Shown here: positions 35,314-48,578 of the stretch, piece after piece | Numbering within the stretch: the stretch's first letter is position 1 | Layout of the letters: the number at the start of each line of letters is the position of its first letter | Assembly: GCA_947460345.1 (NCBI GenBank) | Contig: CANHGM010000023.1 | Coordinates: forward strand, 1 to 48,578 | Reading direction: 5' to 3' | DNA: 48,578 bases | From: Bacteroidota bacterium | GTDB taxonomy: Bacteria; Bacteroidota; Bacteroidia; UKL13-3 | Notes under the pieces: model-generated | Database searches by the model: none | What the model saw: the letters and a program-made list of their open reading frames with translations, nothing else | Told to the model about the DNA's origin: nothing | Program-made: the position numbers and the translations under genes

Positions 35314-36330
35314 TTAATTGTCGTCGCTTTCAATTAGTTTTAATAATGTTTCTTTACTTGGTAAAACAGTTAAGTATTTACTTGCATAAATTTGTGTGTT
35401 ATTTTCAGGAAGTGTATACTCTACAACTGCTTCACTTTTATTTTGACAAAGAATTATTCCAATTGTTTTGCTTTCGTCTTCAAGTTTTACTTTCCTATCG
35501 TAAAAATTTACATACATCTGCATTTGACCTATATCTTGATGTTTTAATTCTCCAACTTTGAGATCAATAAGAACAAAACACCTCAAGATTCTGTTATAAA
35601 AAACTAAATCAATTCTAAAGTGTTTATCTTCAAAACTTATTCTGTTTTGTCTTGCAACAAATGTAAAACCTGTTCCTAACTCCAATAGAAAATGTTCAAG
35701 TTTATCAATTAATTTTTGCTCTAAATCATTTTCTGAATAAGTGTTTTGCTCTGGAAGGCCTATGAATTCTAAAACATATGGATCTTTTATCGCATCAATT
35801 GGTTTTTCTATAATTTGACCTTGTTCTGCTAGTTTTAAAATCTCATTTTTATTTTTACTTAAAGTTAACCTTGTGAATAAGGCTGAATTGTATTGTCTTT
35901 CTAATTCTCTCAAACTCCAATTATTTTTAAATGTTTCAATTTCATAGAATTTACGTTCAATTTCATCGTCAATTCGCATTAGTTTTAAATAATGTGACTA
36001 ACTCAATTTGAATTCGTCAGACAGTGTCTGACCTTTTCCATAAACAACATTTTTTGAATAAACAGAGTAGAATTGCCTCATTTGTTTTAAATTAGTAACA
36101 GAGAAACCTTTTCCAAAATCCTTAGTCAAGTTTTGAGATAAATATGATAGTAATTGACTTCCATAATCAGCTCTTTCTTTACCATTCTGTTCTTCTTCAA
36201 CTATCATTCTTCCGATTTCAAAATAAGTTAAAACCATTGTATGATTTACTGTATGAAGTACTCTTTTTCGAGCATCATTAAGCAAATCTGAAATCTTTTC
36301 GGATAAATTATTTAAAGATATTATTGTCAT
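35314..36330 (-). pseudogene. YhcG/DUF1016 nuclease gene interrupted by one in-frame TAG
   Basis: The N-terminal half (36330-35998, 110 residues) is DUF1016_N: MVLTYFEIGRMIVEEEQNG, FSVTNLKQMRQFY, TLSDEFKLS. The C-terminal half (from 35979, 221 residues starting MRIDDEIERKF) is the PDDEXK part with FRIDLVFYNRILRCFVLIDLKVGEL. Read straight through, the joint is FKLS-stop-SHYLKLMRIDDEIE. In the family this is FKLSWSHY, so TGG (Trp) has become TAG at 35998-36000. Everything else is in frame and full length (about 338 residues). UAG is a normal stop elsewhere in the window. The C-terminal half has its own ATG, so a two-piece protein is possible. A -7 box at 36355-36362 is intact. Confidence 0.85.
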
Positions 36331-44336: not shown

Positions 44337-44482
44337 GTCACTCTGGATTTATTTCAGAATCTCTCTATATAAATCCACAAAACAAATCAAAAAAACTCAG
44401 ATGCTGAAACAAGTTCAGAATGACGCGTTGGAGGGAGTGTATATGTTGCGTTAGATTGTTACCCTGAATTTATTAAGGGTCT
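44337..44482. repeat. Three-copy intergenic repeat with an inverted pair
   Basis: 26-bp arms at 44337-44362 and 44399-44424 are imperfect inverted repeats (GTCACTCTGGATTTATTTC... against AGATGCTGAAACAAGTTCAG...). A third related unit stands at 44458-44482 in the orientation of the first. They could fold into a long hairpin downstream of hisS. Confidence 0.7.
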
Positions 44483-44580
44483 TTAAAAACATAAGTATAT
44501 ATACTCTTTTATCACATTGCCATATTTTTTTCTTTTGTTTTTCAAATATTTAAGTGATATTTGATGTAAACAAATTAGCC

Positions 44581-47025
44581 ATGAAAAAATATATATACAC
44601 CTCAAAAGTCAGCAAAAATAAAAATCTGACACACACACACACTATTACTATTGCGACATTTAGTAGGGAATTATTCATTTTAATTTTCATGCTTTTGGTA
44701 CAAAACTTTAAAATTTCTGCACAGTGCAATCAGTCAAATCAAACTATTTGTTCCATAAATAATGTTATTACATTAAATAGTCCGGGTACAATAAACTATA
44801 CCTATGATTGGTATATAGAAAATTGTCCTGCTTGTCCCAATAATGTTCCATGTATGACAGCAAGCTATGTTGGAACAGGAACTACATTTACAGATTATTT
44901 CCAAAATGGAAGTAATATTGTTTATTATGTAGCAATGGATTTAGCAAACCAACCAGTTTGCACTTCTCAGTTTACATTACTTATTAATCCCTTAATTATA
45001 CAATCAAATAATGTAAATAATACATTGGGAAGTATTTTATCTGTAAATATGCCATGTTTAGGTTTTACTAGTTATCAGTGGTATAGAAATGGTGACATTA
45101 TAGTAGGAGAAACCAATCAATCTATTGTAACTCAATTGCCTGGAAATTATGTATGTGATGCATATTTAAACCCATGTGGTTTAATGACTTCAAATGCAAT
45201 AACAATTACGTGCCAGCCAACTAATACCATACAGTTTACAAACTATGTAGAAAATGCTGGAACACATGTTTATACAGGGAATATATATATAGATGGTTTT
45301 TTTAAAGTTCCAGAAGGAAGTGACGTTTCATTTATAAATGCCAACATTACAGTAGCTAATTGTGGTGAAATTATAGTGGATAAAGTGATAGGTCCAATAA
45401 GCCCAACAGGTATAGGAGGTAGATTGTTAATAGAGAACTCATCAATTTCTGGTTGTGAAAGTATGTGGAGAGGTATTAAAGTAATTGGGGAAGGATACTT
45501 GCCACAAGGAATGTTTAATATTAAATCAGCAACATTAACATTAAGAAATTCAAAAATATATGATGCTGCAGTTGGAGTAAAAGTAGAAAGTCATGGTTAT
45601 TTATATGGTGACAGGTGTTTGTTTGAAAACAATTTAACACATATATATCTTGAAACCTGTTGGGAAATGGATGGATATATCAAAAACTCTAAATTTTCAT
45701 ATTTAAAGAAATTTACTCATTTTATCTGTTTTGATAATTATAATTCATTAACATTTATACCTCAAAAACATTTTTTTGCCAATTATATTTCAAGTTTTAC
45801 TTTAGAAAATGACACATTTATTGGCCAAGCATTAAATGGAAATTTTTCAGAAAATGCCATTGAGGTGCATAGTATCCAATCACCACCAAGTTTTGCCTAT
45901 AGGAATGGGTTCGAAGTAACCAATTGCAACTTTTTTGGAAATTTTGATTATGGAGTTAATATTAAAACACCAAACTATGTAGTGATTAAAAATACTTCAA
46001 ACACAAGTTTTAATGGAGATATAAATCATGCCATTAAATTTGATGAAACTGGAGGTCACAATTTAATATCTGGTTTAAATATTGTAAATCCCAATCTTAC
46101 AGCATTAGAATCGGGTATATCAATTAGAAATTCGTTTTCTACAATTATAGAAAACTCAAATATAATCGACTATAACAAAGGAATAGAAGTTTATATACCC
46201 GATGGTAGTATTCAAGATGCAGTTGAAGTAAGGAATAATAATATATTAGCCAGCAACTATGGGGTTACAATTGCAACAAGAGAGTTCCCAGTGAGCACAA
46301 TACCAACATTAAATCAATTAAATTTAATAAAAAATGTTTTAATTCATTGCAATAGAATATTAAATTGCAATTATGGGATTATAGGCACTGGTCTCATGAT
46401 AGAACAAGGAGATGGTACTAATGATTGGAGTAATAGGTTTTGTACCAGTGTAAGCAATGATGAATGTTTGAATGTTAGCAGTAGTAATATTGCAGATGTA
46501 GTTTGGTTGAACGATGGGCAAAATTATCCTACAGGATTTACATTGAATTATGACAAGGATAATAAAGGTAGCCTAATAAAAAGAGATTTGAAAGACTTAG
46601 GAGTAGGTCAAACACTCTACCTTGATGGTGTTCCTGTAACTTTAGCAGGAGCAAATAAAAATTCATTACAATTTGCAGCAATTCCTTTTACAAATCCTTT
46701 TTCATTTTTGTGTCCCAGTACACATTATGATAAAAAAGGTGATGATAAAGAATATATAATTAAAAGTAAACAAAAAGATATTATAGTTTCAAATCAACTT
46801 ATAGTATATCCTAACCCTGCTTCAATTTCCATAAGAATTGAAGGTTTGTCTGACGCAGTATTAAATTATAAAATATATGATATTACAGGTAGATTAATAA
46901 ATGAAGGATATACAACACCCAATAGTTTTGAAATTCCAGTTAAACAGTTTAGTGATGGATTATATAATATAGTTATATATTCAGCGGAAGGTTTACCAAT
47001 CATTACTAGATTTTTAAAAAATTAA
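44581..47025 (+). CDS. Right-handed beta-helix T9SS surface protein
   Basis: 814 residues from ATG 44581 (an in-frame upstream start at 44554 is less likely). The N-terminus has a long, unusual signal peptide: a basic stretch with a THTHTITI segment, then the hydrophobic core LFILIFMLLVQNF and the end KISAQC. Two Ig/PKD-like domains follow (about 40-210), with several cysteines. The centre (about 215-660) has the repeating short strands and N-rich turns of a right-handed parallel beta-helix (IRNSFSTIIENSNIIDYNKGIEV). The C-terminus is a T9SS sorting domain with LIVYPNPAS. It is probably a surface adhesin or polysaccharide-binding protein; no lyase residues are evident. A (CA)7 tract lies in the signal region. 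Confidence 0.85.
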   Translation: MKKYIYTSKVSKNKNLTHTHTITIATFSRELFILIFMLLVQNFKISAQCNQSNQTICSINNVITLNSPGTINYTYDWYIENCPACPNNVPCMTASYVGTGTTFTDYFQNGSNIVYYVAMDLANQPVCTSQFTLLINPLIIQSNNVNNTLGSILSVNMPCLGFTSYQWYRNGDIIVGETNQSIVTQLPGNYVCDAYLNPCGLMTSNAITITCQPTNTIQFTNYVENAGTHVYTGNIYIDGFFKVPEGSDVSFINANITVANCGEIIVDKVIGPISPTGIGGRLLIENSSISGCESMWRGIKVIGEGYLPQGMFNIKSATLTLRNSKIYDAAVGVKVESHGYLYGDRCLFENNLTHIYLETCWEMDGYIKNSKFSYLKKFTHFICFDNYNSLTFIPQKHFFANYISSFTLENDTFIGQALNGNFSENAIEVHSIQSPPSFAYRNGFEVTNCNFFGNFDYGVNIKTPNYVVIKNTSNTSFNGDINHAIKFDETGGHNLISGLNIVNPNLTALESGISIRNSFSTIIENSNIIDYNKGIEVYIPDGSIQDAVEVRNNNILASNYGVTIATREFPVSTIPTLNQLNLIKNVLIHCNRILNCNYGIIGTGLMIEQGDGTNDWSNRFCTSVSNDECLNVSSSNIADVVWLNDGQNYPTGFTLNYDKDNKGSLIKRDLKDLGVGQTLYLDGVPVTLAGANKNSLQFAAIPFTNPFSFLCPSTHYDKKGDDKEYIIKSKQKDIIVSNQLIVYPNPASISIRIEGLSDAVLNYKIYDITGRLINEGYTTPNSFEIPVKQFSDGLYNIVIYSAEGLPIITRFLKN
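44629..44642 (+). repeat. (CA)7-type microsatellite in the signal-peptide region
   Basis: Seven AC units starting at codon 17 of the beta-helix gene. They encode the THTH stretch. A change of one or two units moves the rest of the gene out of frame. Confidence 0.9.
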
Positions 47026-47037
47026 ATTTTTACTATT

Positions 47038-48578
47038 ATGAAAAAGTATATGGTACTTTTTCTTCTAATGCAAAGTGTAAACATGTTTGCACAAGAAGGA
47101 AACAATTGGGTAATTCCAAACTTGAATGAAAGCATGGGGATTAATTGGGGCAATAAAGATTCAATGCTTTATAAAGTAAACTCAATTTGGAATCCATATA
47201 CTCAGTCTATTTCTAATTGTGAAGGGAAGTTAATGTTGTATTCTACTGGTCAATATTTATGGAACTCAAAGCAGCAGAGATTAAGAGATACGGTAAGAAG
47301 TAGTTATTTTTATAATGCTATTATTATTCCCAATCCAAGTAATGATTCAGTATTTTATTATATATTTTCAAATGGACGATTTAGGTATTATACCGTAGAT
47401 TTAAGATTAGATTCAGGCAGAGGAAATATCACTGATACTATTCCAATAAATATTACTGATTCTGTTAGTATTTTTGGAGGTTTTACTAAACATGCCAACG
47501 GAAGAGATTATTGGTTATTAGTAAAAGTAAATGAATACCAAGTGAGGTCTTATTTAGTCTCCGACAGTGGCATTTCTAAAACGTATATTTCTAGCAATAT
47601 GCTTGGGGTAACATCAACAGCTACAGGAGGGGATAATCATGGTCTACGTTTTTCAAATAATGGTAAAATGGTTGTATCACCATTTACAAGAATCACTTTT
47701 TCATTAGGATGGTCAAATATATATATATATGATTTTGACAACAAGTCAGGTAAATGTTCAAATCAAAGATTGTTATTAAGGTTTAGACCAGGGTTGCCAT
47801 TTTATAATACATATGCTGAAAATGGTGTATCATTTTCACCAAATGACAGTTTGATATACTGTCAATATTCTAGAATGACAGTTGGAGGACTTTTTATTCT
47901 TCAATTTCAAACCTATAGTAATGATATACCTAAAAGTTGTGATACAATATTAAGAGCGAATTCAAATTATGAGTCAAATGGTATGCAATTAGCACCAGAT
48001 AATAAAATTTACTTTTGGATAAGAGATACAATTCCTAGTTTTCGTTTATCTTCTATACTATATCCAGATAAGAAAGGAAAGGATTGCGAAATTAAATTAT
48101 ATAATTTTAGTACCTTCCCATATAATATTAGCTCACTTAATGTGGCAAATTTTCCATGCTACAATTTTCCCATCAAACGCATCAACAACCATTTCACGGT
48201 CACTGGAGCATATGGCTGCGGCACAGATACCGTCCGCTTCCGCATGGATGCAGACAGCAGCTTTCACTCTGCATGGTGGTATTTTGGTGATGGAGACAGT
48301 GCCCAAGAATTCTATATACGAGATAGCTTAGGCAACAAACAATGGCAAGGCATTACCCATCTATACAAACAAGAAGGAAGTTACTATGTGAGGCTAGCCT
48401 GCGGCCTTGGCACATGTGGTTATAAACAATGGGTAGGTGATAGCATCAGTATACAGTTTAAACCCAACTTAAAATTTACCACTAATAAAAATATTTACTG
48501 TGGCTACCAAACCATAGATGCCAACCTCAACTATAACTACACCGATACCCTCAAACTCTCTTGGGGTGATGGCACAGA
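47038..48578 (+). CDS. PKD-type exported protein, 3' partial
   Basis: The frame is open from ATG 47038 to the window edge (513 residues seen). A signal peptide (MKKYMVLFLLMQSVNMFA) is followed by a propeller-like region of the kind found in Bacteroidota PKD/gliding-motility C-terminal proteins (YCQYSRMTVGGLFILQFQ and the MQLAPDNKIYFW block). A PKD domain lies near the end (WWYFGDGDSAQEF). Proteins of this type usually end in a type B T9SS (gliding-motility associated) domain; that part is outside the window. It begins 12 bp after the beta-helix gene, so the two are probably an operon. From about base 48150 codon use changes sharply to C-ending codons. Confidence 0.85.
   Translation, partial: MKKYMVLFLLMQSVNMFAQEGNNWVIPNLNESMGINWGNKDSMLYKVNSIWNPYTQSISNCEGKLMLYSTGQYLWNSKQQRLRDTVRSSYFYNAIIIPNPSNDSVFYYIFSNGRFRYYTVDLRLDSGRGNITDTIPINITDSVSIFGGFTKHANGRDYWLLVKVNEYQVRSYLVSDSGISKTYISSNMLGVTSTATGGDNHGLRFSNNGKMVVSPFTRITFSLGWSNIYIYDFDNKSGKCSNQRLLLRFRPGLPFYNTYAENGVSFSPNDSLIYCQYSRMTVGGLFILQFQTYSNDIPKSCDTILRANSNYESNGMQLAPDNKIYFWIRDTIPSFRLSSILYPDKKGKDCEIKLYNFSTFPYNISSLNVANFPCYNFPIKRINNHFTVTGAYGCGTDTVRFRMDADSSFHSAWWYFGDGDSAQEFYIRDSLGNKQWQGITHLYKQEGSYYVRLACGLGTCGYKQWVGDSISIQFKPNLKFTTNKNIYCGYQTIDANLNYNYTDTLKLSWGDGT

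Follow-up and report, generated by a model that had tools for sequence, protein, structure and literature searches.

The RgpA, Kgp and HagA genes of P. gingivalis encode type IX-exported surface proteins with differing fronts and with modular back regions, the adhesin regions, that are common to the genes. In the part of the published account cited here, recombination is inferred by the authors and automated assembly fails in the shared parts (PMC5266723). The mosaic gene described in this study is similar in kind to these gingipain and HagA regions but belongs to a different family. According to the same part of that account, the fronts in P. gingivalis consist of proteases and their propeptides, and what the genes have in common are CAD/DUF2436 adhesin modules (PMC5266723), whereas here a predicted propeller-type head precedes a tail with a PKD domain, and the genes, unlike the P. 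gingivalis adhesins, are arranged as two-gene units whose leader is found repeatedly in the genome. Neither a CAD nor a gingipain catalytic domain was found in the mosaic protein or in its homologue on contig C54, for which Pfam at E <= 0.01 gives only PKD and sorting domains. The order of propeller and then PKD is also that of PDB 1l0q, a tandem YVTN beta-propeller and PKD surface-layer protein, which is archaeal, unlike the bacterial C54 protein. Another account reports, in its cited part, a 10-kb inverted repeat with an adhesin gene and nothing on shared tails (PMC5808330). No description of this protein family was recognised in a literature search whose scope excluded most subscription papers.

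Layout of the two-gene unit

The window analysed here (48,578 nucleotides) is the whole of contig C23 of a 3.0-Mb draft genome in 76 contigs. The mosaic gene lies on the plus strand from 47038 to beyond 48578, where it runs off the contig end with 513 codons visible. It is preceded by the first gene of the pair (Table 1), which would encode 823 aa if started at the GTG at 44554 and which, from a reading of its repeats, may be beta-helix-like.

Table 1. Mapped parts of the two-gene unit in the window.
Feature	Coordinates	Strand	Content
Conserved 5' block	44490..44668	+	upstream region and first ~27 codons of upstream gene
First gene of pair	44581..47025	+	type IX sorting domain, variable body; 814 aa from ATG
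Variable head of mosaic gene	47038..48153	+	N-terminal leader and domain; AT-rich silent sites
Junction zone	48151..48232	+	changes of DNA similarity, C3 and silent identity
Conserved tail, start only	48154..48578	+	PKD domain; C-rich and G-poor silent sites; cut by contig end

The 5' block (about 180 bp) occurs in the window and four more times in the genome: almost complete copies lie on C54 (87%) and C14 (86%), and stretches of only 75-80 bp on C17 and C49, where just an end of the first gene seems to be left. At one place it precedes an unrelated 1475-aa sorting-domain protein; this arrangement and the fork on C14 and C17 described below are at L211:2938-7365 with its 3' end and at L097:19040-19424. 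Similarity on the 5' side extends over 334 bp between the window and C54 (84%), over 286 bp between G004_a and G004_f (86%) and over 136 bp between G026_a and G026_b (91%), the latter four being copies in genomes of another genus; in some pairs this conserved leader limits the variable part on its other side. Homologues of the upstream gene stand directly before the mosaic gene on C54, in G004_a, b, d, e, f and g (not c or h), in several G026 copies and in G016. In G004_a, b and f (L065, L066, L070) this first gene consists of two adjoining open frames, and the head of G004_c (L067) is interrupted near its start; these are either broken genes or assembly errors. A palindromic intergenic repeat of the TGCTGAAACAAGTTCAGCA and CCCTGAATTTATTTCAGGG types is present at 44337-44662 and at many places in the genome, and a query with this repeat plus the tail gave 52 genome matches, several of them at contig ends.

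The type IX sorting domain (Por_Secre_tail / TIGR04183) is found in the C54 protein (44.2 bits), in a fragment on C17 (50.9 bits) and in the upstream gene of the window (33.2 bits; cut-off 27), while the mosaic gene of the window ends before its C-terminus. A PKD domain (PF00801) scores 24.2 bits, above the cut-off of 23.5, at residues 397-453 of the window protein; the heads of the window and C54 proteins have no Pfam match above cut-off. The fold of the head has been modelled for the C54 homologue only, to which the window head is 38% identical, and by this homology the window head is predicted to carry a beta-propeller-type domain. In the AlphaFold model of the C54 protein (mean pLDDT 63), the propeller-type domain covers residues ~26-365, with pLDDT of 10-residue blocks mostly 53-91. 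The best structural match of this head, after VIA re-alignment, is a putative 6-phosphogluconolactonase (Z 18.5), and 1l0q is matched at 3.8 A over 273 residues (Z 17.8, 9% sequence identity); the first Foldseek matches listed (50; TM-scores 0.09-0.22 by query length) were not used. Residue 365 is the last one covered by the best propeller match, a low-confidence stretch spans 356-377 and the junction falls at residue 368, so the boundary sits near the linker between propeller and PKD domain. On the sole grounds of its fold and the export signal, the head is likely to bind an extracellular target.

Codon use and descent across the junction

An abrupt change of codon use near 48150 had been noticed in the preliminary description, and when the 513 visible codons are divided at one point, the strongest contrast indeed lies after codon 373 (~48154). 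At this point GC3 rises from 0.20 to 0.47 (z=6.0) and C3 from 0.08 to 0.40 (z=8.6), values that none of 2000 codon shuffles reached in either case. Four-fold-site C increases from 0.08 in the head to 0.53 in the tail, while G3 goes from 0.12 to 0.07 and G at two-fold purine sites from 0.26 to 0.05. Since C rises and G does not, the step is one of C only rather than of GC in general. A separate change of G3, from 0.26 to 0.08, lies near codon 85. Among 2602 overlapping 138-codon windows from 242 mechanically called, sampled ORFs of the same genome, the tails of the window and C54 genes are the two richest in C. As the same description stated, the 1466-aa gene (z=-2.7) and hisS (z=2.4) show no comparable internal step, and the highest |z| among the other 28 window ORFs compared is 3.9.

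The whole visible protein is matched at one other locus in the genome, a complete 871-aa gene with the same head-tail join (C54:190-2805). This gene has a similar step (GC3 from 0.21 to 0.43 at codon 361), with C3 alone splitting best at codon 314, well before the junction; a third paralogue, of 752 aa and also on C54, shows a milder rise of C3 from 0.13 to 0.25, reached by 3 of 2000 shuffles. The heads of the window and C54 genes have 38.4% amino acid identity and a near-random 52.9% silent identity (72 of 136 silent sites alike), and the sole match found between their DNA is 44 bp long. The visible tails, by contrast, agree at 94.9% of amino acids and 91.6% of silent sites (120 of 131), and the window DNA from 48151 to the contig end is 95% identical to C54:1289-1716. 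Only 38-60% of silent sites are common to the tails of this genome and those of G004, G026 and G016, which argues that the window/C54 value reflects recent shared history and not constraint on silent sites. With old divergent heads and near-identical tails, the two halves differ in history as well as in silent-codon habits.

Along the gene, DNA similarity to C54 begins at 48151, the C3 step follows at ~48154 and the first long exact match at 48169. Silent identity between the two genes changes best at 48232 (codon 399, range 378-402; lnL gain 30.3), about 25 codons inside the tail. The trees of the two parts disagree likewise. In the head tree, C54 joins G004_a, b and c (100/99) with the window head apart; the tail tree pairs the window with C54 (100/99) and places the tail protein of this genome among the tails of the other genus. 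A tree with the C54 tail held in the clade of its head (G004_a, b, c) was rejected with p-AU 2e-49, and one with the head clade of G004_d, e, g and G026_c imposed on the tails with p-AU 3e-7. For the heads of G004_a, b, c, f and G026_a, b as one clade the AU test gave p 2e-80, for a group that is itself weak in the tail tree (65/2), and the window and C54 heads as sisters gave only p=0.038-0.040, with a long-branch warning.

Copies in another genus

Of 64 genomes searched in the family, 4 hold a strong match to the tail (E below 1e-50). Eight copies each were compared in G004 and G026, which represent one other genus of this family; G026_i was omitted from trees and pairwise counts owing to its long branch, and G026_f, with only 43 tail codons, was left out of the tail trees but kept in the pairwise counts. 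DNA identity is higher past the junction than before it in all 28 G004 pairs and all 28 G026 pairs, the rise exceeding 0.15 in 14 and 9 of them, respectively. At silent sites, whole-tail identity in G004 is 0.657 versus 0.488 for the head, the tail being higher in 28/28 pairs, and even the first 170 columns of the tail exceed the head in 26/28. The corresponding values in G026 are 0.576 and 0.490 (tail higher in 22/28 pairs), and this weaker silent excess implies that part of the rise in DNA identity in G026 comes from slower change of the tail protein. As judged from these alignments, the same boundary appears in the genomes of the other genus, clear at silent sites in G004 and weaker in G026. 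DNA alignments of G004_f to a, b and c begin 2-3 bases past the junction (2004 bp at 82% for a/f), and those of the related-head pairs a/b, a/c, b/c and d/e cross it. All these assemblies are in draft state and are interrupted at these repeats.

Proposed recombination and its alternatives

We consider it quite likely that these genes form a small family of type IX-exported proteins, encoded in paralogous two-gene units, in which old variable heads are combined with a tail made common within the genome in recent times, presumably through homologous recombination. As in concerted evolution, relationships in one segment follow the genome and those of the remainder follow older lineages, this genome contributing one pair. 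A typical unit would begin with a leader and a variable exported protein as the first of the pair, followed by the variable beta-propeller-type head and then the conserved tail with its PKD domain, further domains and sorting signal. Homologous recombination in the tail (gene conversion or crossing-over), and perhaps in the leader too, would keep the tails alike; differing variable middles would thereby carry the same export and anchoring tail, and heads could persist as old lineages. A recombination edge at the junction would spare both domains. The codon step noticed by eye within one gene thus marked a true historical boundary, and it points to a family of paralogous exported proteins in Bacteroidota in which heads and tails evolve apart and silent sites carry a bias towards C only.

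A more active exchange of cassettes, in which leader and tail would be the homologous flanks and the first genes and propeller heads between them the parts exchanged, is possible, if somewhat doubtful; if true, it would mean a changing repertoire of surface binders in these Bacteroidota. The start of the mature 752-aa protein (149 bp identical) is found behind two different upstream genes and signal peptides, on C14 and on C17. This fork at the right end of C54 and the leader before the unrelated 1475-aa gene fit a recent reshuffling, be it inside one genome or among strains, and the fork could also represent two strains in one assembly. The beginning of C17 itself (L083:3-362) holds the last 120 codons of another tail, of which the final 119 residues (C17:6-362) match at 92%. 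This fragment, for which an overlap with the end of the window was looked for and not found, could be the part of the mosaic gene that lies beyond the contig end.

Recombination between paralogues or with another genome had been proposed from the outset. As far as paralogues are concerned the proposal stands, since silent identity and the head and tail trees shift, and DNA similarity begins, at or just past the junction, and a mosaic involving paralogues appears well supported by the sequences compared. The other genome is a different matter: no donor was found, and the two halves, which had been expected to find their best matches in different lineages, both find them in the same bacterial family. 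Import of the tail from a genome with C-rich codons, followed by copying onto several heads, is therefore unlikely in our judgement. It would explain why four-fold C in the tail is so extreme beside 0.14 for the pooled window ORFs and 0.03-0.13 for the ribosomal-cluster genes around L2 (all but L2 named by reading of the sequence), and why 15 other sampled sorting-domain genes reach a C3 of only 0.06-0.21 over their last 150 codons. However, the best outside tails, 48-60% identical over parts of the tail, belong to the same family (64 genomes); no closer tail was present among 395 sampled genomes of the class, with three candidates scored per genome, and no foreign donor in GTDB contigs among the best 80 matches. 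The position of the tail protein among tails of the other genus also speaks against import. Moreover, the 752-aa paralogue has a C3 step although it has DNA in common with the 871-aa gene only over its last ~250 bp (87% identical to that gene's end), which favours an older property of the lineage. The C-rich silent sites characterise the tail lineage of this genome, and their origin lies outside the recombination mechanism proposed above; since C54 has a similar step, recombination between the window and C54 genes alone cannot account for their source.

Simple misassembly, translational optimisation, domain-driven codon choice and GC-biased conversion were tested and disfavoured. We give very little credence to a misjoin near the contig end that put a wrong tail on the window head. 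The contig does stop 425 bp past the junction, and several other contigs end in related sequence, but over 429 alignment columns the tail shows 19 mismatches to that of C54, some of which change amino acids, and exact matches measure 29 bp nearest the junction and 69 bp at most. The same order of head and tail, joined at the same codon, also recurs in other assemblies.

It is just as improbable that the domain itself, or selection on translation, favours such codons. The use of C over T at two-fold sites partly resembles optimal-codon choice, C occupying 0.32-0.54 of these sites in the ribosomal cluster, and C3 rises to 0.24-0.32 in the tails of G026_c, e, g and h and to 0.33 in the 43 tail codons of G026_f. 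At four-fold sites, however, the ribosomal cluster avoids the C that the tail prefers, and the eight homologous G004 tails have a C3 of 0.15-0.23; the same step in orthologues of all relatives, named in the preliminary description as the finding that would speak against a mosaic, is thus absent. GC-biased gene conversion in an often-converted tail is scarcely credible, for although the higher GC3 falls in the shared segment, both G and C should then be up at silent sites where only C is, and the G004 tails are also alike without such a rise.

Two minor observations concern neighbouring sequences. On contig C12 of G004 (L073:4951-6813), the opening ~35 codons of an IS1595-type transposase are fused to a tail that lacks a head; a longer copy of the transposase, with both IS1595 Pfam domains, lies at L213:1471-2226. 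In the window, a short and possibly broken ORF at 35998-36330 resembles what we take to be the N-terminal part of a DUF1016-type protein.
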